Below the pieces are notes generated by a model. It had not been told where the DNA came from, ran no database searches, and was given only the letters and a program-made list of their open reading frames with translations. A program made the translations under genes and the position numbers. A stretch of DNA of 52,878 nt from Tepidiphilus sp. J10 (GTDB lineage: Bacteria; Pseudomonadota; Gammaproteobacteria; Burkholderiales; Thiobacillaceae), in the NCBI GenBank assembly GCA_945897865.1, contig CAMDHJ010000007.1, forward strand, positions 1-52,878, given 5' to 3'. Numbering within the stretch: position 1 is the stretch's first letter; every line of letters starts with the position of its first letter. Positions 7,073 through 50,091 of the stretch are shown here, in pieces.

Positions 7073-7810
7073 ATGACACGCATACCGCCTCCTCCCAGCC
7101 CGAGTCAGAACCACCTTCTCGCGGCCCTGCCGACGGCAGAATTTGAGCCACTGGCCCCGCATCTGGAACTGGTCAAGTTACCGCTCGGCGAAATGCTGTA
7201 TGAGCCAGGCGACCAGTTGCTGCACGCCTACTTTCCCACCACCGCCATCGTCTCGCTGCACTACGTCATGGAATCGGGCGCATCGGCCGAATCCGCCGGT
7301 GTCGGTAACGAGGGGGTGGTCGGCATTTCGCTGTTCATGGGCGGCAACACCACGCCCAGTAGCGCCGTGGTGCAGACAGCGGGCCACGCCTACCGGTTGG
7401 CGGGCGGCAAGCTGGTGCAGGAATTCAATCGTGCCGGCCTGCTGCAACGGCTGTTGCTGCGCTACACCCAGGCGCTGATGACTCAGATGTCACAGACCGC
7501 AGCCTGCAATCGGCATCATTCAGTGGAGCAACAACTCTGCCGCTGGCTGTTGCTGACCCTTGATCGCCTGCCCGGCAACGATCTGGTGATGACCCAGGAA
7601 CTGATCGCCAGCATGCTGGGCGTGCGCCGCGAAGGCATCACCGAAGCCGCCGGCAATCTGCAACGGGCCGGCGTCATCAGCTACCGCCGCGGCCACATCG
7701 CGGTGCTCGACCGGACTGGCCTGGAGCAGCGCGTCTGCGAGTGCTACGGCGTGGTGAAGACGGAACTGGATCGACTGCTGTGCGATGTGCGCTATCGCCA
7801 GAACGGGTAG
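7073..7810 (+). CDS. Crp/Fnr-family transcriptional regulator (paralogue 1)
   Basis: 245 residues. A cupin-like sensor domain (residues about 15-140: YFPTTAIVSLHYVMESGASA, VGNEGVVGISLFMGG) is followed by a dimerisation helix and a winged-helix domain with LCRWLLLTLDRLPGND, MTQELIASMLGVRREGITEA and SYRRGHIAVLDR. The usual cAMP-contact motif is absent, so the ligand is unknown. It follows the REC-PAS gene by 6 bp. The stop codon lies in the first four bases (GTAG) of a repeated sequence. The predicted recognition helix (VRREGITEA) is nearly identical to that of the second Crp-like protein at 8578-9351. Confidence 0.9.
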   Translation: MTRIPPPPSPSQNHLLAALPTAEFEPLAPHLELVKLPLGEMLYEPGDQLLHAYFPTTAIVSLHYVMESGASAESAGVGNEGVVGISLFMGGNTTPSSAVVQTAGHAYRLAGGKLVQEFNRAGLLQRLLLRYTQALMTQMSQTAACNRHHSVEQQLCRWLLLTLDRLPGNDLVMTQELIASMLGVRREGITEAAGNLQRAGVISYRRGHIAVLDRTGLEQRVCECYGVVKTELDRLLCDVRYRQNG

Positions 7811-7855: not shown

Positions 7856-7929
7856 GTAGGATGGGCCAAGCGCAGCGGGCCCATCAACGCGCGACGACAG
7901 ATGGGCCCGCTGCGCTTGGCCCCTCCTAC
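7856..7929. repeat. REPIN-like palindrome, family B copy 1 (between convergent genes)
   Basis: A 74-bp long hairpin: GTAGGATGGGCCAAGCGCAG at the left end and its inverted counterpart CTGCGCTTGGCCCCTCCTAC at the right end. A second copy lies at 25368-25439. Both sit between two convergent genes, where they may act as bidirectional terminators, although no U-tract follows. GTAG ends are typical of REP elements mobilised by RAYT transposases. Confidence 0.85.
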
Positions 7930-7951: not shown

Positions 7952-8581
7952 CTAATCGTGCGCGCAGGCCTCCGGCTTGCGTGCTTCCCGTATCTGCCGC
8001 ATTTGCATCTCGGCTTGCTTGATCTTGCCGGCATCGAATAGCGCAAAACGCAACACCGGCCGCAACGCCGACGCCTCCGGCATGGGCTCGCGGGATCGGC
8101 AGTCAAAATAGGCATTGAAGGAGGTGCCATCGGCGCGGAGCATCTCAAGCATGAACACCGTACGCTCGATTTCGGCCGGGTCCAGCAGGCTGGGAATCAG
8201 GCTATGCCAACGATCCCTGTCCTGCGCGGAAATGAATTCCGCCATGCGGCGATTGATCAGTTCGGTGCGCTCGACACCCAGCAATACCGCACCGGTCAGA
8301 TTGACTTCGCTGATCACGCCATCCCGGCTGATGGCGAAATAGCCGACCGGGGCAAACTCGTAATACTCCGCAAAATGGTCTCGTGCCGCTTCCGCGGCCG
8401 TGTGGGCGCGCTTCAATTCCTCGACCTGCATCTCCAGTTCAACCTTGTGCACCAGGAGTTCATGCAACATCGCATCCACTGGATGGGCTGCAGAATCCAC
8501 TTGGGAAATGCTGGATAGCATCGAGTCCGCCTCCCGGCGCAAGGCGTGGCGTTTTTCGATCCAATCGATTTTCTGCTTCAT
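7952..8581 (-). CDS. PAS-domain signalling protein, no output domain
   Basis: 209 residues. The N-terminal coiled coil (residues about 5-75: LHELLVHKVELEMQVEELKR) resembles the lead-in of PAS-GGDEF proteins. A PAS domain follows at about 75-190 (YYEFAPVGYFAISRDGVISE, LLGVERTELINRRMAEFI). No catalytic or DNA-binding module follows. It overlaps the upstream Crp-like gene by four bases (ATGA), so the two are co-translated and may work together. The large PAS-GGDEF-EAL protein at 28951-31590 has a very similar N-terminal block (HELQVHQIELELQNEELRRA, LYDLAPVGYCSLSEAGLI). Confidence 0.85.
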   Translation of the reverse strand: MKQKIDWIEKRHALRREADSMLSSISQVDSAAHPVDAMLHELLVHKVELEMQVEELKRAHTAAEAARDHFAEYYEFAPVGYFAISRDGVISEVNLTGAVLLGVERTELINRRMAEFISAQDRDRWHSLIPSLLDPAEIERTVFMLEMLRADGTSFNAYFDCRSREPMPEASALRPVLRFALFDAGKIKQAEMQMRQIREARKPEACAHD

Positions 8582-9351
8582 GCCGGTTCCCCTTTGCGCG
8601 ACTGCAATGACGCGGGATGAACGACCGTGCCACCTGGCTCAACCCGATACGGCAGCAAGCGATCGAATTCCTTCTTGACCACGGCGTAACACTCGCAGGT
8701 CCGCGCTTCCAGGCCGGCGCGGTCAAGCACCGTGATGTGGCCGCGGTGGTAAGTGATCAAACCGGCCTTCTGCACGTTGCCGGCAGCTTCAGTGACGCCC
8801 TCGCGGCGCACACCCAGCATGTTGGCGATCAACTCCTGAGTCATCACCAGTTCATTGCCGGGCAGGCGGTCCAGGCTCAGCAGCAGCCAGCGGCAGAACT
8901 GCTGGTCCAGCGTGTGATGGCGGTTGCACACCGCAGTCTGCGCCATCTGGGTCAGCAATGCCTGGGTGTAACGCAGCAACAGATGCTGCATCGGGCCGGC
9001 ACGGCAAAACTCTTCCTTCAACCATTGCCCGCTCAAACGGTAGGCATGGCCGGCGCTTTGCACCACGGCGCGATTGGTGGTGGTTTCGCCGCCCATGAAC
9101 AGCGTGACGCCGACCATGCCGTCGTTTCCGACGATGGCGATCTCGGCCGATGCGCCATCCTCCATGACATAGAGCAGCGAGACGATAGCCGTGGTGGGGA
9201 AATAGACATGGCGCATCGGCATGCCGGATTCGTACAGCACTTCTCCGAGCGGCATCGGCCCCCATTCAAGATGCGGAAATAGGTGTGAGGCTTCCGCCGC
9301 CGGCAGCGCGGCGAGCAGGTGGTTCTGGCGGGGATCCTGGATGCCGAGCAA
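8578..9351 (-). CDS. Crp/Fnr-family transcriptional regulator (paralogue 2)
   Basis: 257 residues from a TTG start at 9351, chosen because GGGGGA lies a few bases upstream; an upstream TTG at 9366 lacks a ribosome-binding site. The layout matches the first Crp-like gene: sensor domain (YFPTTAIVSLLYVMEDGASA, VGNDGMVGVTLFMGG) and winged helix (MTQELIANMLGVRREGVTEA, TYHRGHITVLDR). It carries a longer C-terminal tail (LPYRVEPGGTVVHPASLQS). Ligand and targets unknown. The stop overlaps the PAS gene by four bases. Head-to-head placement and close similarity to paralogue 1 suggest a local duplication. Confidence 0.88.
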   Translation of the reverse strand: MLGIQDPRQNHLLAALPAAEASHLFPHLEWGPMPLGEVLYESGMPMRHVYFPTTAIVSLLYVMEDGASAEIAIVGNDGMVGVTLFMGGETTTNRAVVQSAGHAYRLSGQWLKEEFCRAGPMQHLLLRYTQALLTQMAQTAVCNRHHTLDQQFCRWLLLSLDRLPGNELVMTQELIANMLGVRREGVTEAAGNVQKAGLITYHRGHITVLDRAGLEARTCECYAVVKKEFDRLLPYRVEPGGTVVHPASLQSRKGEPA

Positions 9352-9663
9352 ATTTTCCCCCTTCAATTGACAGATTCGAACGCACTGACCGACACAGCCG
9401 AACCGACAAATCAGGCACCCAGAGTCTAGGTCATCAGCAGCTTACTCCGGTTCTGCAACGCACTTTCACGGCCTAAAGCATTTTCTTAGCCGGGGTTATG
9501 TACGCCAGCAGACAGACACCGTCAGGCGCGTTCCATAGGCTGCGAGCTATCGGAGCCAACATGGGTGCGCTGTCTGCACCCTGGTCATGCGCGATGGGTG
9601 AAAGCAACGCGCTCCTGGCATAGAAAACTCCGTGTTCAGTAACATTAACAAAGAGGTAACACC
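9352..9663 (+). other. Divergent intergenic region with dyad site 3
   Basis: 312 bp between the second Crp-like gene and the glycine-zipper lipoprotein. Apart from the dyad-like site at 9500-9513 I see no gene, terminator or repeat. Confidence 0.5.
9500..9513 (+). promoter_or_regulatory. GTnCG-N4-CGnAC dyad, site 3 (weakest copy)
   Basis: Context ATGTACGCCAGCAGACAGA, about 150 bp upstream of the glycine-zipper lipoprotein. The right half is CAGAC instead of CGnAC, but the flanking AT before it and AGA after it are kept. TTATGT before it resembles a -10 box. Confidence 0.4.
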
Positions 9664-13109: not shown

Positions 13110-13205
13110 GTAGAGTGGAAAAGCCGGCGGCATTTTGCCGGCGCCTTCTGCCATCCCACCGTAGCATCCGGCGGAAGATGCCATAGAGCTGCTTTTCCGC
13201 ACTAC
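13110..13205. repeat. REPIN-like palindrome, family A copy 1 (left border of accessory island)
   Basis: 96 bp starting GTAGAGTGGAAAAGCCGGCG and ending GCTTTTCCGCACTAC. Outer arms GTAG-n4-GGAAAAGC and inner arms (CGCCTTCTGCC / GGCGGAAG) are inverted. Other copies lie at 17624-17770, 34768-34861 and 44812-44910. It follows marC directly. Confidence 0.8.
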
Positions 13206-17623: not shown

Positions 17624-17770
17624 GTAGGGCGGAAAAGCGGCTGTAATGCGCCTTCCGCCGTATGCACCGCATCCACCCGAACTACGAGTCAGCCTGACCA
17701 CAGGAGCACGGTGCGCGGGATCAACCGGGGTTCATTCGGCGGAAGGCGCCTGTCGGCTTTTCCGCACTAC
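17624..17770. repeat. REPIN-like palindrome, family A copy 2 (right border of accessory island)
   Basis: 147 bp: left arm GTAGGGCGGAAAAGC with GCGCCTTCCGCCG, right arm CGGCGGAAGGCGC with GCTTTTCCGCACTAC, separated by extra central sequence of about 80 bp. The terminal CTAC (17767-17770) supplies, on the minus strand, the TAG stop of the ABC permease gene. Its partner at 13110-13205 lies at the other edge of the defence and toxin region. Confidence 0.8.
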
Positions 17771-25367: not shown

Positions 25368-25439
25368 GTAGGATGGACCAAGCGCAGCGGGCCCATCAAC
25401 GCGCCGAGTGATGGGCCCGCTGCGCTTGGCCCATCCTAC
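25368..25439. repeat. REPIN-like palindrome, family B copy 2
   Basis: 72 bp starting GTAGGATGGACCAAGCGCAG and ending CTGCGCTTGGCCCATCCTAC, differing from the copy at 7856-7929 mainly in the loop. It lies between the convergent NYN and transglutaminase genes. Confidence 0.85.
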
Positions 25440-34747: not shown

Positions 34748-34892
34748 CAGGTTCATAGCCAGCTTGCGTAGGACGGGTGAGCCGGCGTCCTTTTGCCGGC
34801 GTTATCCGCCGCATGAGCAACATCCGGCGGAAGGCGCGATAAGGCCGCTTTTCCGCCCGACGTGTTTCGCTACCGGGCAGGTTCATAGCCAG
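34748..34892. repeat. REPIN-like palindrome family A copy 3 flanked by a 15-bp direct repeat
   Basis: The direct repeat CAGGTTCATAGCCAG occurs at 34748-34762 and 34878-34892. Between them, from GTAGGACGGG at 34768 to about 34861, lies a family A palindrome (GTAG head, GCCGGCG arms, CCGGCGGAAGGCGC, GCTTTTCCGCCC). One direct-repeat copy contains the stop codon of the phospholipase D gene and the other the upstream ATG of the CheB-CheR frame, so the insertion split what was an ATGA overlap. Confidence 0.75.
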
Positions 34893-40067: not shown

Positions 40068-41231
40068 ATGCCGGTTGCCATGTCTGAAGCGGAAGTTGCG
40101 CAAAGCAACGAGCCCATTACGCAACCAGCCGCCATCCGCTTGCCGGTCGCCGGACATGGCCTGGCGCTGACCATCCTGGCCACGGTGGCGGTGGTCTTTG
40201 CGCTGGAGTGGGCGCAGAGCTTCGTTATTTCCCTGCTCGTCGGCATCCTGTTCGCCTATACCCTCAACCCACTGGTGGTCTGGCTGGAGCGGATCAAGAT
40301 TCCGCGTGTGGCGGGCGCCACGCTGATCATGGCGGCGGGCGTGGCTGCGCTCGTGCTGGGCAGTTTCGCCTTGCGCGGTCAGGTGCGGACCATCCTCGAA
40401 CAACTGCCGGCGGCGGTGAGCGAGTTGTCGACCGGGGTCGCCAGTCTGCGTCAGGGCCGGGACAGCACGATGCAGAAGATCCAGACCGCCGCCAGCGAAC
40501 TGGAGCAAGCGACCAGCCAGGCAGCCGGCATGGCGATACCGCAGAAACAGCGCGCGACGCGCGTGGTGATCGAGACGCCCGGCTTCAAATTCGGCGATAT
40601 CCTGTGGTCGGGCTCGATGGGGGCGGCCGGGATGATCGGCCAGACCGCCATGGTGTTGTTCCTGACTTATTTTCTTTTGCTCTCCGGCGACACCTATAAG
40701 CGCAAGCTGGTGCGACTCACCGGACCTTCGTTGTCGAACAAGAAGATCGCCGTCCATATCCTCGACGACATCAACGCCTCGATCCAGCGCTACATGCTGA
40801 TGCTGCTGGCGACCAACGTGCTGGTGGGCTTGCTGACCTGGTTCGCATTGCGCTGGATCGGCCTCGATAACGCCGGCGCCTGGGCGGTAGCCGCCGGTTT
40901 GCTCCACGTCATCCCCTACTTCGGTCCGGCCGTTACCGCCGCCGCCATCGGCATGGTCGCCTTCCTGCAGTTCGACAGCCTGACGCCGGCGTTGCTGGCT
41001 GCCGGCGTTTCGCTGCTGATCGCGACCCTCGTCGGCACCTTCATCACCACCTGGCTGACCGGTCGCATCGCCCGCATGAATACCGCGGCGGTGTTCGTTT
41101 CGCTGTTGTTCTGGACCTGGCTCTGGGGTGTCTGGGGCATGTTGCTGAGCATGCCGATCACGGTGCTGATCAAAGTGGTGGCGCAGCATGTCGAGCAACT
41201 TGAACCGGTGGCTGAATTGCTGGGGGACTAA
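40068..41231 (+). CDS. AI-2E-family permease (copy 2)
   Basis: 387 residues. Family layout: N-terminal helix pair (TILATVAVVFALEWAQSFVI, SLLVGILFAYTLNPLVVWLE), a long periplasmic segment (about 100-185, with SELEQATSQAAGMAIP), then NVLVGLLTWFALRWIGLDNA, VIPYFGPAVTAAAIG and the final bundle. It starts 3 bp after the BrkB stop and ends 11 bp before the glucan synthase ATG, so the three form one unit. A role moving a glucan precursor or envelope component is an inference from context only. Distinct from copy 1 (26362-27450) in sequence and operon. Confidence 0.9.
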   Translation: MPVAMSEAEVAQSNEPITQPAAIRLPVAGHGLALTILATVAVVFALEWAQSFVISLLVGILFAYTLNPLVVWLERIKIPRVAGATLIMAAGVAALVLGSFALRGQVRTILEQLPAAVSELSTGVASLRQGRDSTMQKIQTAASELEQATSQAAGMAIPQKQRATRVVIETPGFKFGDILWSGSMGAAGMIGQTAMVLFLTYFLLLSGDTYKRKLVRLTGPSLSNKKIAVHILDDINASIQRYMLMLLATNVLVGLLTWFALRWIGLDNAGAWAVAAGLLHVIPYFGPAVTAAAIGMVAFLQFDSLTPALLAAGVSLLIATLVGTFITTWLTGRIARMNTAAVFVSLLFWTWLWGVWGMLLSMPITVLIKVVAQHVEQLEPVAELLGD

Positions 41232-41241
41232 AGGGCTCACC

Positions 41242-44200
41242 ATGGTAAAGCTCCCCGAATATTGGCGACAGATCAAATCGCGGCTGCGCAGTCGCGGCAT
41301 GCCACCTAATGCATCGCTTGATGAAGCACCGCTGCGCGCCGAGCTGTTCAGCGCCGACCAGATGGCGCAGCACGGCGCACGCCTGGCCGACGCGCACCGC
41401 ATCGCAGTGGGACGGCAGCCGGACCAGTTGCTGGCGCGACTCGATGCCAACGAGGCGGTGCTGGTCGAGACCTGCCGCCAACTCACTCTGGCGGTGGCGG
41501 CGAAGCACCGCATCACCCCGGCCGCCGAATGGCTGCTCGACAACCTGTATCTGATCGAAGAACAGATACGCACCGCCCGCCGCCACTTGCCCAGGGGCTA
41601 TAGCCGCGAGCTGCCCAGCCTGGCCGATGGCGTTTCCAGCGGCTTGCCTCGCGTATATGACATCGCGCTGGAAACCATCGCGCATGGCGACGGACGCGTC
41701 GACCCGGACAGCCTGCGCCGCTTTGTCGCCACTTATCAGACCGTGACGCCGTTGCGCCTGGGTGAGTTGTGGGCAATTCCGATCATGCTGCGTCTGGCGT
41801 TGATCGAGAATCTGCGCCGAGTGGCGGTGCGCATTTCGGCGGGCAGAAGGGAACGCGATCTGGCCGTCGGCTGGGCGGAGACGCTGAGCGAGATTTCGCA
41901 TCGGGATCCGAAAAATCTGATTCTGGTGATCGCCGACATGGCGCACTCGAAACCACCGATGTCGCCGCCGTTCATCTCGGAACTGGCGCGTCGCCTGCAA
42001 GGCCAGGGTCCGTCACTGAGCCTACCGCTGACCTGGATCGAGCAGCAACTGGCCGATGGCGGGCTCAACATCGAACAAGTGGTGCGCGCCGGCAACCAGC
42101 AGCAAGCCGCCGATCAGGTTTCGATCAGCAACAGCATCGGCAGCCTGCGCCTGTTGAGCACGCAGGACTGGCGCGAGTTCGTCGAGGCGATGAGCGTGGT
42201 CGACAGTACGTTGCGCAACGATCCGGCCGTGGCCTACGCCAGCATGGATTTCGCCAGCCGCGACGGCTATCGCCACATGGTGGAGTCCATCGCCAAGGTG
42301 TGCGTCAACACCAGCAAGCTGGCGGAAGCCAGCGTGGCCGACAAGGCCATTGAGCTGGCACGAGCGAGCGCTGAAACGCTGGGAAAAACCGACCGCCGCT
42401 CGCATGTCGGTTATTACCTGATCGACCGCGGCCGCCACGAGCTGGAACAGGCTTGTGGCGCGCATTTGCCGTTCACCACCCGGCTGCGGCGCGGCGCCAG
42501 CCGGACCCCCTTGTTGTGGTATCTCGGCGCGATCACGCTGTTGACGCTGCTGCTCAGCGCCGGGCTGGTGGCGCGGGCCTGGCTGAACGGCGTCAACGTC
42601 TGGGTGTTGCTGCTGACCGGCCTCCTCGCCCTGCTCGCCACGGGCCAGCTTGCGACCGCGCTGGTGAACTGGCTGACCACCTCGCTGGCGTCGCCGCGGC
42701 CGCTGCCGCGCATGGATTTTTCCAACGGCATCCCGCCGCAATACCGCACGCTGGTGGCGGTGCCGACGCTGCTGAGCAGCCCGCAAAACGTCGAGCATCT
42801 GGTCGAGGCGCTGGAAGTGCGTTTTCTGGCCAATCGCAATGCCCATCTGCACTTCGCGCTGTTGACCGATTTTCGCGATGCCGCCGAGGAAACCCTGCCG
42901 CAAGACGCGTCATTGCTGGCCTTGGCGGCGGAGCGTATCACTGCGTTGAACACGCAATACGCGGCGGGCCGAGATGATGTCTTCTTTCTGCTGCATCGCC
43001 CGCGCCGGTGGAACCCGCATGACCGCATCTGGATGGGCTACGAGCGCAAGCGCGGCAAGCTGGCGGACCTGAACACCTTGCTGCGCACAGGTCGATCCGA
43101 TGCTTTCTCGTTGCTGATCGGCGACATCGCCAGCCTGGCCGGCGTGAAATATGTCATCACGCTGGATACCGACACGCAGTTGCCGCGCGAAGCCGCGCAG
43201 CAATTCATCGGCGCCATGGCGCACCCGCTCAATCAAGCCATCTATGACCCGGTACTGGGCCGCGTCCGCGCCGGCTACGGCATCCTGCAACCGCGCGTCA
43301 GCTCCAGCCTGCCGGTCGCCAATCAATCGCGCTATGCCCGCCTGAATAGCGGCGAGCCGGGCATCGACCCGTACACGCGGGCGGTGTCCGATGTGTATCA
43401 GGACGCGTTCCAGGAAGGTTCCTTCATCGGCAAGGGCATTTACGACGTTGCCGCGTTCGAACAGGCGCTGTCCGGCCGCTTCCCGGAAAATCGCATACTC
43501 AGCCACGACCTGCTGGAGGGCTGCCACGCCCGCGCCGGCTTGCTCAGCGACGTGCAGTTGTACGAGGAATATCCGGCCCGCTACGGCGCCGACGTGGAGC
43601 GACGCTATCGCTGGATCCGCGGCGACTGGCAGCTCGTCGCCTGGCTGCTGCCCTGGGCGCCGGGGGCGAATGGGCGCTGGCAGCGAAATCCGCTGACCCT
43701 GCTGTCGCGCTGGAAGTTGTTGGATAACCTGCGCCGCAGTCTGGTGCCGGCGGCATTGACGCTGCTGTTGCTGCTAGGCTGGACGCTGTTTGCTTCGCCC
43801 CTGTTCTGGACCCTGGCGGTACTCGGCATTCTGCTGATACCGCCGGTGCTTTCCAGCCTGCTGGATGTGCTGCGCAAACCGACCGACATGCGCCCCGGCC
43901 AGCATTTCGCGGCAACTGCGCACGCCGCCGTCCAGCGCCTGCTGCAAACCGGATTTGCGCTGGTGACATTGCCGCATGAAGCGGCTTACAGCCTGGATGC
44001 GGCCCTGCGCACGCTCGGCCGATTGCTGTTCACGCAGCAACGGCTGCTGGAATGGAAAGCCTCCGGCGATCAAGACCCGAGCCGCCGCGACGATCCGCTC
44101 GCTGTATTGCACGGCATGGCGTTCGCGCCCGCGCTGGCCATCGCCACGGCAAGTTGGCTGGTGGTGATGAATCCGGCCGCGCTGCCGCTGGCCGGGCCGA

Positions 44201-47200
44201 TTTTGTTGCTGTGGCTGCTGTCCCCCGCCATCGTCTGGTGGCTCAGCCTGCCGCTGCCGCGTCGTGTGGCGCGCCTGAGCGCGGAACAGACGCGTTTCCT
44301 CGGCCGCATCGCGCGCAAGACCTGGGCGTATTTCGAGACTTTCGTCGGCCCGGACGACCACTGGCTGCCGCCGGACAATTACCAGGAGTACCGCGCCGCC
44401 ACGCTGGCGCATCGCACCTCGCCGACCAATATGGGCCTGTCGCTGCTGGCCAATCTGTCGGCGCATGATTTCGGCTACATCCCGACCGGGCAACTGCTCG
44501 AACGCACTGCCAACGCGCTGACCAGCATGGCCGGGCTGGAACGCCATCGCGGCCATTTCTACAACTGGTACGACACGCAAACCCTGCGTCCGCTGCACCC
44601 GGCTTACATCTCGACGGTGGACAGCGGCAATCTGGCCGGCCATCTGCTGACTTTACGCCCCGGCCTCCTGGCCTTGCTGGACCAGCAGATCCTGTCGCCG
44701 CGCACGCTGGACGGCGTGCGCGACACGTTGGGAATCCTGATCGCGGCGGCGGGCCAACCGACACCGGCGACGGTGACGCAGTTCAAGATGGCGTTGGAAT
44801 CCGCGCAGATCGTAGGGCGGAAAAGCAGTTTTATCGCGCCTTCCGCCGGAAGGTGGGCCGCTCATACGGCGGAAGGCGCCGGCCAAACCCCGCCGGCTTT
44901 TCCGCCCTACGAACTCACACTGGTAGCGGCTCGGCATCTGTTCGACCGGCTGGCGCGCTACGCCACTGCGATCATTGACGAATTCGCCGACGATTTTGCC
45001 AATGAGCCGGCAAACCAGGCCAACTGGTGGGCCGGCGCACTGTCCCGGCAATGTCAGGCGATGCGCGAGGAACTGATCTTTCTCGCGCCCTGGAGCGGCC
45101 TGCCGGAAGCCCCGGTCGGGCTGGGCGGTTTTGACGATATCAACCTGATACCGACCTTGCGCGATCTGGCCGGGCTGAAACTGGCCTGGTCGGACCGCCT
45201 GGCAAGCCGGCTCGATGCAAGCACATCTTCAGCCCAGACCCAGTGGCTCAATACCCTCGCCAATGATCTGGAACAAGGCAGCGCGCATGCCCGGGCGCGT
45301 ATCGCCAGCATCGAGCAACTGGCGTTGCAGGCCGGTGAAATGGCCAACATGGAATACGGTTTCCTGTACGACAAGGCGGCACGCCAACTTGTCATCGGCT
45401 ACAGCGTGGAAGAGCGGCGGCGCGACAGCAGTTTCTACGACCTGCTGGCATCGGAAGCGCGTCTCGCCGTGTTCGTCGCCATCGCGCAGGGGCAGTTGCC
45501 GCAGGAGAGCTGGTTCGCGCTCGGACGTCTGCTCACCCGCGCCGGCGGTGAACCGATTCTGTTGTCGTGGAGCGGGTCGATGTTCGAGTACCTGATGCCG
45601 CAACTGGTGATGCCGACCTACGACCACACCCTACTCGACCAGACCGCGCGCGCGGCGGTGGCGCGGCAGATCGAATACGGCCAGCAACTCGGCCTGCCCT
45701 GGGGTGTCTCGGAATCCGGCTACAACACGGTCGATCTGCAGCTCAACTATCAATACCGCGCGTTCGGCGTGCCCGGCCTGGGACTGAAACGCGGCCTCGG
45801 CGAAGATCGCGTGGTGGCGCCCTATGCTTCGGTGATGGCGCTGATGGTGGCGCCGGAAGCGGCCTGCCTGAATCTGCAACGGCTGTCCGCGGCCGGGGCT
45901 GAAGGCGCCTTCGGTTTTCACGAGGCGATCGACTACACGCCGCTGCGTCAGCGACGCGGCGAAAAACAGACGCTGGTGCGCTCCTACATGGTGCATCACC
46001 AGGGCATGAGCCTGCTGGCGCTGGCCTATCTGTTGCTGGATCGGCCGATGCAGAAACGTTTTGCCGCCGACCCGCTGCTGCAATCGACGCTGTTGCTGCT
46101 GCAGGAACGCATCCCGCGCGCTTCGCTGCTGTACGCCCAAACCGCCGAACTGACCGGCATCGATACCGGCACCAGCACACCGGAAATGCCGATCCGCGTT
46201 TTGCGCAATCTGGATACGCCGACACCGGAAGTACAGTTGCTGTCGAATGGCCGCTATCACGTCATGCTGACCCATACCGGCGGCGGTTACAGCCGCTGGA
46301 ACGACCTGGCGGTGACACGCTGGCGGGAAGACAGCGTGCGCGATGCCTGGGGCACCTTCACCTATCTGCATGACGTGGCCAGCGGCGCGACCTGGTCCAC
46401 CGCGCACCAGCCGACGCAGCGCCGCGCCACGCATTACGAAGCGATCTTCTCGGAAGGCCGCGCCGAATTCCGCCGGCATGATGTTGGCAGCCATAGCCGG
46501 GGCGAAGACTTCGATCTGGAGACCCACACCGATATCGTCGTCTCGCCGGAAGACGACATCGAATTGCGCCGGGTCCGCATCACCAACCGGGGCGACGCGC
46601 CGCGCACGATCGAAATCACCAGCTATGCCGAAGTGGTGCTGGCGACACCCGCCGCCGATGCGCTGCATCCGGCCTTCAGCAATCTGTTCGTGCAGAGCGA
46701 GATCATCGAATCGCGCCAGGCCATCCTCTGCACCCGGCGGCCACGCTCGCGCGAAGAGCATTCTCCCTGGCTGTTCCATCTGATGTCGGTACACGATGCC
46801 GAGGTCGAATCACTGTCTTTCGAAACGGATCGCGCCCGCTTCATCGGTCGCGGCCGTATCGCCGCGTCGCCGCAGGCCATGGAGCAGGATGGCGCGTTGT
46901 CCGGCAGCCAGGGTTCGGTGCTCGACCCGGTTGTCGCGATCCGCTGCCGCATCACGCTGCAGCCGGAACAGTCGGCCAGCATCGATCTGGTGTTCGGTAT
47001 CGGCGACAGCCGCGCGGCGGTGCTCAATCTGGTCGAGAAATATCAGGATCGCCGGCTAGCCGATCGCGTCTTCGAGCTGGCCTGGACCCACGCCCAGGTG
47101 CTGTTGCGCCAGATCAACGCCAACGAGGCCGACGCCCAGCTTTACGGGCGTCTGGCGAATTCGATCCTCTACGCGCATGCCGGCTTGCGCGCCGACAGCG

Positions 47201-50091
47201 GCGTCTTGATGAAGAACCGGCGCGGCCAGTCCGGCCTCTGGGGCTATGCCATTTCCGGTGACCTGCCGATCGTGCTGCTGCAGATCGGCGACCTGGCCAA
47301 CATCGAACTGGTGCGCCAGTTGATTCAGGCGCATGCCTACTGGCGGCTGAAGGGGCTGGTGGTCGACCTGGTGATCTGGAACGAGGATCGCGCCGGTTAT
47401 CGCCAGGCCTTGCAGGACCAGATTCTCGGCCTGGTCGCGGTGGGCCTGGAAAGCCAGATCATCGACCGGCCGGGCGGCATCTTCATCCGTTCGGCGGAGC
47501 AGATTTCCGAGGAAGACCGCACGCTGTTCCAGACCGTCGCCCGCGTCATTCTGAGCGACAACTGGGGCACGCTGGCGGAACAACTCGACCGCCCCTTGCC
47601 GCCGGTGGTGCGCGTGCCAAGATTGCCGTGGAAGGTGCCAAGGCCAGAATTGCCCGCCGCCTTCAACTTGCCGCAACGCGAGCTGATCCTGGCCAACGGC
47701 ATCGGCGGTTTCACGCCGGATGGTCGCGAATACGTCATCACCACCACGCCGGAGCAACTGACTCCGGCGCCGTGGGTCAACGTGCTGGCCAATGCGCAAT
47801 TCGGCAGCGTCATTTCCGAAAGCGGCCAGGCCTACACCTGGGCCGAGAACGCGCACGAATTCCGCCTGACGCCATGGGACAACGACCCGGTCAGCGACAC
47901 CGGCGGCGAAGCGTTCTATCTGCGTGACGAGGACACCGGCCAGTTCTGGTCACCGACGCCGCTGCCCCGGCGCGGTGCGACGCCTTACGTCAGCCGGCAC
48001 GGCTTCGGCTACAGCGTGTTCGAACATACCGAAAGCGGCATCCATTCCGAGTTGTGGATCTATGTCGCCACCGACGCGCCGGTGAAGTTCGCCGTGCTCA
48101 AACTACACAACCAGTCCGGCCGCGCGCGGCGTCTGTCGGCCACTGGCTATGTGGAATGGGTGTTGGGCGATCTACGGCCTAAGACCGCGATGCACGTCGC
48201 CACCGAAGTCGATGCCGCCAGCGGCGCGATCTACGCGCGCAATGCCTACAACACGGAATTTCCCGACCGCGTCGCCTTCTTTGATGTGGACGACCCGCAG
48301 CGCAGCTTCACCTGCGACCGCGCCGAATTCATCGGCCGCAACGGCAGCCTGAAAAACCCGGCGGCACTCGGCCGCACGCATCTTTCCGGCAAGCTGGGCA
48401 GCGGGCTGGACCCGTGCTGCGCGCTGCAGGTCGGCGTCAATCTGGGCGACGGGCAGACGCGCGAGATCGTGTTCCGTTTGGGCGTGGGAGGCATACCGGG
48501 TGCTGAAGACGCCAATCGTCTGGTGCATCGCTTCCGTGGCAACGACGCCGCCCGTCGCACGCTGGAAGCGGTCTGGGCGTTCTGGAACCACAGCCTGGGC
48601 GCGGTGCAGGTGGAAACGCCGGATGAATCGCTCAACGTACTGGCCAACGGCTGGCTGCTGTATCAAACCCTGGCCTGCCGCATGTGGGCGCGCAGCGGCT
48701 ATTACCAGTCCGGCGGCGCCTTCGGCTTCCGCGACCAGTTGCAGGATGCGATGGCGCTGGTGCACAACGAACCCGGCTTGCTGCGCGCGCAACTGCTGTT
48801 GAGCGCCAGTCGCCAGTTCAGCGAAGGCGATGTGCAGCACTGGTGGCATCCGCCCGCCGGACGCGGCGTGCGCACCCATTGTTCCGACGATTACCTGTGG
48901 CTGGCGCTGGCCACCAGCCGCTATGTGCTGTGCAGCGGCGACACCGGCGTGCTGGAGGAAGCTGTGCCGTTCCTGGCAGGCCGCCCGCTCAATCCGGACG
49001 ACGAGTCCTACTATGACCTGCCCGGCTCAGCCTCGGGCACGGAAAGCCTGTATCAACACTGCCTTCGCGCCATCCGTTATGGCATGCGCTTCGGCGAACA
49101 CGGCCTGCCACTGATCGGCTCCGGCGACTGGAACGACGGCATGAATCGAGTCGGCATCCACGGCAAGGGCGAAAGCGTCTGGCTAGGCTTCTTCCTGATC
49201 GAAGTGCTGCGCCAGTTCGGCACACTGGCGCAGCAACACGACGACCCCGATTTCGCCGAATTCTGCGCAACCGAAGGCCAGCGTCTGCGCGACAACATCG
49301 AACAGCACGCCTGGGACGGCGACTGGTATCGCCGCGCCTGGTTCGACGACGGCACGCCGCTGGGATCGGCCGGCAACAGCGAATGCCAGATCGACTCCAT
49401 ATCGCAAAGCTGGTCGGTGCTGTCCGGCATCTCGGTGGGAGTCAACAGCAGCGAGCGTTCCCGCCGCGCCATGCAGGCGCTGGACGCACGCCTGGTCCGC
49501 CGCGAAGCGGGCTTGGTGCAACTGCTCGACCCGCCGTTCGACCAGACCGACCTCGACCCCGGCTACATCAAAGGGTACGTGCCCGGTGTACGCGAAAACG
49601 GCGGCCAGTACACCCACGCCGCGATCTGGGCGGCAATGGCCTTCGCTGCACTTGGCGACAACCGCCGCGCCTGGGAAATCACCACCCTGATCAACCCCGC
49701 CAACCACGCCAAATCCACCGACGCCATCGCGGTTTACAAAGTGGAACCCTATGTCATGGCCGCCGACATCTACGCCGTATCGCCCCACACCGGCCGCGGT
49801 GGCTGGACCTGGTACACCGGCTCCGCCGGCTGGATGTACCGGCTCATCGTCGAATCGCTGCTGGGATTGCGCCTGGAAGTGGACAAGCTGCACATCACCC
49901 CCTGCTTGCCGGCTCACTGGCCGGGCTTCAAGCTGCATTACCGCTTCCGCGAAACGGTGTATCACATCATCGTCGTGCAGGATGGCGCGGCGGGTCTCAG
50001 CGTCGATGGCGTTGAGCTGGAAGGGCGGGTGATCCGCCTACTGAACGACCATCGGGAACACTACGTAGAAGTCAAAGTAAATTCCCGCTGA
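41242..50091 (+). CDS. Giant NdvB/cyclic beta-1,2-glucan synthase-like protein (GT84-glycoamylase-GH94)
   Basis: 2,949 residues. Membrane segments at about 422-480, 833-875 and 955-1005. GT84-type glycosyltransferase at about 490-800: DTDTQ near 638, LSHDLLEGCHARAG near 752, RRYRWIRGDWQ near 786. Glycoamylase-like domain at about 1026-1600: WYDTQTLRPLHPAYISTVDS, SGSMFEYLMPQLVMPTYDH. Two GH94-type beta-sandwich blocks (about 1660-1850 and 2150-2310), then the GH94 catalytic barrel with GSGDWNDGMNRVG near 2626. Related enzymes polymerise UDP-glucose into beta-1,2-glucan, trim it and cyclise it for periplasmic osmoadaptation. A 33-residue segment (1191-1223) is encoded by an inserted palindromic repeat. 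The product could instead be a linear glucan. Confidence 0.9.
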   Translation: MVKLPEYWRQIKSRLRSRGMPPNASLDEAPLRAELFSADQMAQHGARLADAHRIAVGRQPDQLLARLDANEAVLVETCRQLTLAVAAKHRITPAAEWLLDNLYLIEEQIRTARRHLPRGYSRELPSLADGVSSGLPRVYDIALETIAHGDGRVDPDSLRRFVATYQTVTPLRLGELWAIPIMLRLALIENLRRVAVRISAGRRERDLAVGWAETLSEISHRDPKNLILVIADMAHSKPPMSPPFISELARRLQGQGPSLSLPLTWIEQQLADGGLNIEQVVRAGNQQQAADQVSISNSIGSLRLLSTQDWREFVEAMSVVDSTLRNDPAVAYASMDFASRDGYRHMVESIAKVCVNTSKLAEASVADKAIELARASAETLGKTDRRSHVGYYLIDRGRHELEQACGAHLPFTTRLRRGASRTPLLWYLGAITLLTLLLSAGLVARAWLNGVNVWVLLLTGLLALLATGQLATALVNWLTTSLASPRPLPRMDFSNGIPPQYRTLVAVPTLLSSPQNVEHLVEALEVRFLANRNAHLHFALLTDFRDAAEETLPQDASLLALAAERITALNTQYAAGRDDVFFLLHRPRRWNPHDRIWMGYERKRGKLADLNTLLRTGRSDAFSLLIGDIASLAGVKYVITLDTDTQLPREAAQQFIGAMAHPLNQAIYDPVLGRVRAGYGILQPRVSSSLPVANQSRYARLNSGEPGIDPYTRAVSDVYQDAFQEGSFIGKGIYDVAAFEQALSGRFPENRILSHDLLEGCHARAGLLSDVQLYEEYPARYGADVERRYRWIRGDWQLVAWLLPWAPGANGRWQRNPLTLLSRWKLLDNLRRSLVPAALTLLLLLGWTLFASPLFWTLAVLGILLIPPVLSSLLDVLRKPTDMRPGQHFAATAHAAVQRLLQTGFALVTLPHEAAYSLDAALRTLGRLLFTQQRLLEWKASGDQDPSRRDDPLAVLHGMAFAPALAIATASWLVVMNPAALPLAGPILLLWLLSPAIVWWLSLPLPRRVARLSAEQTRFLGRIARKTWAYFETFVGPDDHWLPPDNYQEYRAATLAHRTSPTNMGLSLLANLSAHDFGYIPTGQLLERTANALTSMAGLERHRGHFYNWYDTQTLRPLHPAYISTVDSGNLAGHLLTLRPGLLALLDQQILSPRTLDGVRDTLGILIAAAGQPTPATVTQFKMALESAQIVGRKSSFIAPSAGRWAAHTAEGAGQTPPAFPPYELTLVAARHLFDRLARYATAIIDEFADDFANEPANQANWWAGALSRQCQAMREELIFLAPWSGLPEAPVGLGGFDDINLIPTLRDLAGLKLAWSDRLASRLDASTSSAQTQWLNTLANDLEQGSAHARARIASIEQLALQAGEMANMEYGFLYDKAARQLVIGYSVEERRRDSSFYDLLASEARLAVFVAIAQGQLPQESWFALGRLLTRAGGEPILLSWSGSMFEYLMPQLVMPTYDHTLLDQTARAAVARQIEYGQQLGLPWGVSESGYNTVDLQLNYQYRAFGVPGLGLKRGLGEDRVVAPYASVMALMVAPEAACLNLQRLSAAGAEGAFGFHEAIDYTPLRQRRGEKQTLVRSYMVHHQGMSLLALAYLLLDRPMQKRFAADPLLQSTLLLLQERIPRASLLYAQTAELTGIDTGTSTPEMPIRVLRNLDTPTPEVQLLSNGRYHVMLTHTGGGYSRWNDLAVTRWREDSVRDAWGTFTYLHDVASGATWSTAHQPTQRRATHYEAIFSEGRAEFRRHDVGSHSRGEDFDLETHTDIVVSPEDDIELRRVRITNRGDAPRTIEITSYAEVVLATPAADALHPAFSNLFVQSEIIESRQAILCTRRPRSREEHSPWLFHLMSVHDAEVESLSFETDRARFIGRGRIAASPQAMEQDGALSGSQGSVLDPVVAIRCRITLQPEQSASIDLVFGIGDSRAAVLNLVEKYQDRRLADRVFELAWTHAQVLLRQINANEADAQLYGRLANSILYAHAGLRADSGVLMKNRRGQSGLWGYAISGDLPIVLLQIGDLANIELVRQLIQAHAYWRLKGLVVDLVIWNEDRAGYRQALQDQILGLVAVGLESQIIDRPGGIFIRSAEQISEEDRTLFQTVARVILSDNWGTLAEQLDRPLPPVVRVPRLPWKVPRPELPAAFNLPQRELILANGIGGFTPDGREYVITTTPEQLTPAPWVNVLANAQFGSVISESGQAYTWAENAHEFRLTPWDNDPVSDTGGEAFYLRDEDTGQFWSPTPLPRRGATPYVSRHGFGYSVFEHTESGIHSELWIYVATDAPVKFAVLKLHNQSGRARRLSATGYVEWVLGDLRPKTAMHVATEVDAASGAIYARNAYNTEFPDRVAFFDVDDPQRSFTCDRAEFIGRNGSLKNPAALGRTHLSGKLGSGLDPCCALQVGVNLGDGQTREIVFRLGVGGIPGAEDANRLVHRFRGNDAARRTLEAVWAFWNHSLGAVQVETPDESLNVLANGWLLYQTLACRMWARSGYYQSGGAFGFRDQLQDAMALVHNEPGLLRAQLLLSASRQFSEGDVQHWWHPPAGRGVRTHCSDDYLWLALATSRYVLCSGDTGVLEEAVPFLAGRPLNPDDESYYDLPGSASGTESLYQHCLRAIRYGMRFGEHGLPLIGSGDWNDGMNRVGIHGKGESVWLGFFLIEVLRQFGTLAQQHDDPDFAEFCATEGQRLRDNIEQHAWDGDWYRRAWFDDGTPLGSAGNSECQIDSISQSWSVLSGISVGVNSSERSRRAMQALDARLVRREAGLVQLLDPPFDQTDLDPGYIKGYVPGVRENGGQYTHAAIWAAMAFAALGDNRRAWEITTLINPANHAKSTDAIAVYKVEPYVMAADIYAVSPHTGRGGWTWYTGSAGWMYRLIVESLLGLRLEVDKLHITPCLPAHWPGFKLHYRFRETVYHIIVVQDGAAGLSVDGVELEGRVIRLLNDHREHYVEVKVNSR
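44812..44910. repeat. REPIN-like palindrome, family A copy 4, in frame inside the glucan synthase gene
   Basis: 99 bp from GTAGGGCGGAAAAGC to GCTTTTCCGCCCTAC, with inner arms GCGCCTTCCGCCG / CGGCGGAAGGCGC. It begins on a codon boundary and is exactly 33 codons, adding residues that start VGRKSSFIAPSAG and end PPAFPPY without a stop. It sits in the glycoamylase-like region between MALESAQI and ELTLVAARHLF. Confidence 0.9.

Follow-up and report, generated by a model that had tools for sequence, protein, structure and literature searches.

REP repeats of the GTAG superfamily that lie wholly inside open reading frames were reported in several species by Di Nocera, De Gregorio and Rocco in 2013 (PMC3733652). 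According to that paper, over half of all inserts within genes, with GTAG and CGTC repeats pooled, are dimers or groups that encode 20-30 amino acids, and its discussion extends to neutral insertion into flexible linkers or loops. It also cites the RPE of Rickettsia, palindromes that sit in frame within numerous genes of an alphaproteobacterial host, with RPE-4 and RPE-6 carrying a CGTC tag and RPE-1 being longer, and it describes CGTC repeats as having no dedicated transposase. REPINs, in the parts of PMC3116915 drawn on here (a paper that we take to be that of Bertels and Rainey, 2011), were studied in extragenic space.

We analyzed a window of 52,878 nucleotides, that is, the whole stretch of DNA presented here, in which a cyclic beta-1,2-glucan synthase gene (ndvB) contains a head-to-head pair of REP units, the arrangement named REPIN (Table 1). 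The element opens with GTAGGGCGG and closes with CCGCCCTAC, its outer ends are GTAG and CTAC, as expected of the GTAG REP superfamily and of REPINs, and these ends pair with each other in the lowest-energy DNA fold of the entire dimer. Its folding was matched by none of 200 dinucleotide shuffles (z of -6.5 as DNA and -7.2 as RNA), with an RNA fold of -64.9 kcal/mol. Codon 1209 opens at position 44812, and exactly 33 codons run from there without a stop. The sequence thus bears out the original prediction of a complete 99-bp GTAG...CTAC element that starts on a codon boundary and leaves the frame open. The residue numbers then proposed, 1191-1223, hold if translation starts at the ATG at codon 19, whereas the full reading frame gives those listed in Table 1. 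Three relatives had also been announced elsewhere in the window, and these were found as two dimers and one single arm.

Table 1. Position and strand of the ndvB element, its parts, its host gene and its relatives within the window
Feature	Position	Strand	Remarks
GTAG-type REP head-to-head dimer (REPIN), in frame, residues 1209-1241	44812..44910	+	99 bp; 15/20 orthologous loci without it
Left REP unit: GTAG end, stem, GCGCCTTCCGCCG	44812..44848	+	borders by eye
Spacer separating both REP units; variable among orthologues	44849..44862	+	borders by eye
Right REP unit, inverted	44863..44910	-	borders by eye
Cyclic beta-1,2-glucan synthase (NdvB-type) gene, 2967 aa, hosting the insertion	41188..50091	+	Pfam matches; chains 8rf0, 8rf9
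Intergenic dimer, family of the ndvB element	34768..34861	-	orthologous place in G013:C44 empty
Dimer, family of the ndvB element, outside the large gene	13110..13205	-	sequence match
Single REP arm, family of the ndvB element	about 17624..17664	+	sequence match

The ndvB insert has the defining features of the intragenic GTAG REPs already described by Di Nocera et al. (2013): these too are GTAG-tagged stem-loops, often dimers, that lie inside open reading frames, code for about 20-30 residues and are discussed in terms of loops and linkers. Since that paper reports such intragenic repeats, the original view that this repeat family had no case on record does not hold at the level of the superfamily. 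What stands of the original interpretation is a REP-type palindrome in frame, absent from most orthologues and located in a predicted flexible loop; what falls is its lack of precedent. Whereas PMC3733652, in the text drawn on here, argues for tolerance in general, the ndvB case adds empty orthologous sites and a structure prediction, and unlike the REPINs of PMC3116915 it is intragenic. With the Rickettsia RPE it shares in-frame insertion inside open reading frames, but its GTAG/CTAC ends set it apart from CGTC-tagged repeats. NdvB, glucan, EarP and glycolate go unmentioned in the main text of PMC3733652. Titles and abstract openings yielded no published account of a REP in ndvB, EarP or GlcE, and these three may be new as REP-carrying genes.

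The product of the host gene shows Pfam matches to the GH94 supersandwich, GH94 catalytic and Glycoamylase domains, and matches the solved cyclic beta-1,2-glucan synthase (NdvB/CGS) chains 8rf0 and 8rf9. The insert had been placed between conserved blocks of the glycoamylase-like region; the Glycoamylase match (PF10091) covers residues 1416-1613, and the insert precedes it by about 175 residues while still falling within the larger cyclisation domain. This domain has two conserved halves, and the part that separates them is left unaligned at the sequence level. An AlphaFold2 model of 620 residues, built from a 67-row alignment, reached a mean pLDDT of 86.7 and matched the cyclisation domain of the Thermoanaerobacter italicus cyclic glucan synthase (8wy1) with a TM-score of 0.89-0.90 on the target, so that both sequence and fold identify the host domain. 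In the model, the insert (residues 201-233) is flanked by helices at 186-204 and 237-261, and the sole long stretch with pLDDT below 50 spans residues 205-230. The insert is thus predicted to form a tolerated loop, of low confidence or flexible, between two confident helices; the tolerated surface loop proposed originally finds support at the level of this prediction.

Orthologues were sought in 41 genomes with the surrounding 433 residues as query, and 20 loci from 18 genomes could be aligned. The element occupies the same point of ndvB at five of them, namely the window (genome G000), two contigs of G003 (C29 and C70), G013 and G012, all belonging to the genus of the window, and is absent at the other 15, which identifies the segment as a real insertion. 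G003:C29 is 99.86% identical to the window across 6204 bp; this identity ends near window positions 50019-50091, close to the 3' end of ndvB, and the 13.8 kb of the contig beyond that end gave no megablast alignment to the window. The wider alignment of 67 rows comprised the window, seven loci from the first search and 59 of 80 named-genome loci, of which 64 had passed an open-frame check and 59 of these were aligned. Only three rows carry the REP peptide: the window, G013 and L083, the last being evidently the G003:C70 contig of the window's genus with the same insert. In this sample the 33 residues therefore do not recur in distant genera, as they would if they were native protein sequence, L083 being the only one of the 59 named-genome loci to have them. 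The inter-helix linker is 12 residues long in 52 of the 67 rows and 40-47 in the three with the REP peptide. Given this usual length, we abandoned the idea that in ndvB each insertion had taken the place of 4-11 native codons, since only about two residues would be missing. The inserts of the four distinct carriers measure 99, 90, 111 and 90 bp, and the flanks change mainly silently (39 synonymous and 22 non-synonymous codons out of 195 between G000 and G012).

Beyond ndvB, the window's own genome (an assembly of 247 contigs, 86% complete) holds 22 matches to the element, two of which are the element itself, one per strand, and at least 16 of 23 genomes of the genus contain matches. Among the matches listed, we counted 110 dimers with distinct flanks, representing 91 distinct sequences, in 129 loci; the family is thus repeated within genomes and arranged as head-to-head dimers, like the GTAG REP superfamily and REPINs. 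One genome, G010, has at least 56 matches, many of a single 94-bp type and some in local arrays, which suggests a recent expansion of the repeat there. A second GTAG REP family (GTAGGATGGGCC...) is present in the window at 7856-7929 and 25368-25439, and on G013:C87 (L289) a close variant of it lies on both sides of an NF047646 transposase. At L285 (G012:C90), L370 (G013:C108) and L399 (G012:C68), RAYT genes have a third GTAG family (GTAGGGTGGATAAGCGCAGCGCATCCACC) next to them. Several RAYT/REP pairs thus coexist within the genus. Separately, the window ORFs 7073-7810 (+) and 8578-9366 (-) contain inverted stretches 76-80% alike and are probably a diverged gene duplication.

RAYT genes (NF047646) scored above the cut-off in 18 of the 23 genus genomes, and we inspected the flanks of 38 loci, about 35 distinct places, among the NF047646 matches. 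The REP family of the ndvB element, in matches of at least 34 nt, lies on both sides of a RAYT gene in G003:C52 (where the gene has one in-frame stop), G013:C41 and G016:C23, so that RAYT genes flanked by the same repeat do occur within the genus. On G012:C88, G020:C3 and G014:C30 the matches on both sides are just 16-17-nt pieces, and on G010:C225 repeats lie on a single side, the other being cut off by the contig end. The window's own genome, at 86% completeness, yielded four NF047646 matches, all below the cut-off. Three of its Y1_Tnp genes exceed the Pfam cut-off, and the REP family was undetected in the fetched flanks of these three. The PF01797 search as a whole led mainly to sibling GTAG families adjoining transposase genes. 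No target-site duplication was definable, because empty sites within genes have diverged too far and the sole intergenic site compared, the empty place in G013:C44 corresponding to the dimer at 34768-34861, has extra differences. For other REP/TnpA-REP pairs, single-stranded cleavage of the repeat has been reported (PMC8266576).

Other in-frame copies, a check suggested by the original prediction, were sought at the 129 loci among the matches listed (21 from the window's genome and 108 from the genus). Across 192 fuzzy clusters, a set that also takes in single-unit and chance matches, this screen yielded 90 stop-to-stop candidates. Clusters with both unit orientations and at least 55 amino acids on each side were read by eye (23 ORFs at 21 loci, excluding the ndvB loci L001, L055, L065 and L070 and the second cluster of L057), and two ORFs, encoding GlcE and EarP, were judged genuine. 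Most of the others look like chance frames in GC-rich DNA. L057, with the repeat cluster at the end of an ORF that we take to be methyltransferase-like, is at most a possible case, and the seemingly intragenic repeat of L312 appears to sit between two genes, presumably TldD-like and LipA-like. The EarP of G013 has a Pfam EarP match that spans the insert (7.5e-136), and the GlcE of G003 an NCBIfam GlcE match (2e-143). Across 21 aligned EarP loci the dimer is in frame in G013 and G012, G021 (L292) retains a decayed dimer that has lost its left end and is still in frame, and the remaining 18 have none. In this G021 remnant, a repeat seems to be on its way to becoming plain protein sequence. From the incomplete genome of the window, the EarP search returned REP matches only and no orthologue. 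The GlcE element was found at one of 16 aligned loci, and the site is empty in the window's own genome; at 89 bp its length is no multiple of three, and the frame is kept only jointly with neighbouring differences. The further in-frame copies thus all come from relatives within the genus, and ndvB, EarP and GlcE all use the GTA-G.. frame.

How exceptional such a fit is can be judged from the dimers themselves. Taking each of the 110 dimers among the matches listed in both orientations and all three phases gives 660 cases, of which 112 (17%) are in phase and open, 82 of these 112 in the GTA-G.. frame. This fraction leans on expanded types, because the 110 dimers represent only 91 distinct sequences and 38 of them are 94 bp long. 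With 17% of cases in phase and open, special targeting is unnecessary, and we infer that random insertion followed by loss of the broken genes suffices to explain the exact fit.

Taken together, the ndvB segment is very probably a GTAG-type REPIN that inserted in frame into a variable inter-helix linker of the NdvB cyclisation domain and was kept as a tolerated passenger. The single-strand chemistry of a RAYT would most likely have placed the REPIN in this linker. The gene would have stayed open because the insert length is a multiple of three in each carrier and the GTA-G.. frame is stop-free, and translation would run on through the element, adding to the protein a loop of 30-37 residues that is predicted to be disordered. 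The insert would since have been retained as a passenger in several species of the genus, presumably with a working enzyme.

The DNA of the insert has not changed evenly. Across the four distinct ndvB carriers, two of 34 outer-arm positions vary, compared with 137 of 645 in the flanks (p = 0.029), and none of 12 outer-arm third codon positions has changed, compared with 86 of 215 in the flanks (p = 0.004, from few sites). Including the inner arms gives 0/22 changed third positions, with a p-value (3e-5) that is biased because exact motifs had been used to find these arms; GTAG and CCGCCCTAC at the very ends likewise served as search motifs, and related sequences are not independent. For EarP, the p-value of the same test is not relied on because the flanks were compared without gaps (269/400 identical). 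These patterns hint that the palindrome may be maintained or refreshed inside the gene, and upkeep at the DNA level, not selection on the peptide, would be the simplest reading of the silent-site result, itself drawn from few sites. The spacer and loops of the ndvB element differ among carriers in both length and type. We tentatively entertain, as a doubtful idea, that a REPIN goes on living as a REPIN once inside a coding gene: its arms would remain identical at silent sites as the gene diverges, its spacer would be swapped between subtypes, and the mobile-element population would rewrite the protein loop again and again, in several genes of a single genus. Candidate routes for such rewriting may include transposase-linked conversion, quasi-palindrome correction or re-insertion.

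Whether the carriers go back to one event or several is more finely balanced than the nature of the element. A single old insertion in the ancestor of G000, G003, G012, G013, G017 and G021, mostly deleted later in G017 and G021 and with the element exchanged or homogenised by gene conversion or recombination of ndvB segments, is an account for which we see about equal grounds for belief and disbelief. All carriers have the same junctions, and they do not form one clade in the ndvB tree, where G003:C70 groups with G000 and G013 (0.998) and the carrier G012 joins the empty G017 and G021 (0.951). The linker of G021 measures 20 residues as compared with the usual 12, that of G017 is equally long, and G021 also keeps the decayed in-frame REP in EarP. 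Exchange would fit the spacers, which by eye fall into one type in G000 and G013 and another in G003:C70 and G012, contradicting the tree; it would also fit the G012 element, which among the matches listed scores higher against intergenic dimers of G003 and G018 (0.91 and 0.89) than against the ndvB element of G003:C70 (0.87). The tree, however, is based on one region of the gene, and the linkers of G017 and G021 hold no convincing REP remnant.

The two spacer types at a single site would also be expected if two or more REPINs had inserted independently at the same preferred spot of ndvB, a possibility that we rate as rather unlikely. Local sequence is consistent with such a preference: 160 of 220 dimer ends among the matches listed have a C immediately before GTAG, and AAC stands before it in three of the four distinct ndvB carriers, both EarP copies and the single GlcE copy. 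Base-perfect reuse of one site across several lineages is nevertheless less simple than inheritance.

A gained function, for instance a hairpin that slows translation or a change in glucan ring size or regulation, could explain why the insert is in frame in several species and why the third positions of its arms are unchanged, both in the outer arms and with the inner arms included. We consider this improbable, as the conserved part is the DNA of the arms while spacer and loops vary in length and sequence, the peptide is predicted to be disordered, and similar inserts occur in other genes. An assembly or binning artefact might be suspected because the genomes are drafts split into many contigs, some of them at least assembled from metagenomes, and because G003 has two ndvB contigs, but it is very hard to believe when assemblies with diverged flanks share the element at the same place and G003:C29 agrees so closely with the window over 6204 bp. 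Least credible of all, indeed next to inconceivable, is that the segment is ordinary NdvB sequence with merely palindrome-like DNA, which the open, uninterrupted frame would allow but which the 22 genome matches, the 15 empty loci, the 64 of 67 wider-alignment rows lacking the REP peptide and the strength of the RNA fold all contradict.

With the REPIN reading, filled, empty and decayed sites together give an evolutionary view of a mobile palindrome becoming protein sequence in NdvB, EarP and GlcE. The suggestion made in 2013 that intragenic REPs are harmless in loops thereby becomes testable, and the question is raised of whether such intragenic inserts keep trading sequence with the other copies of the repeat.
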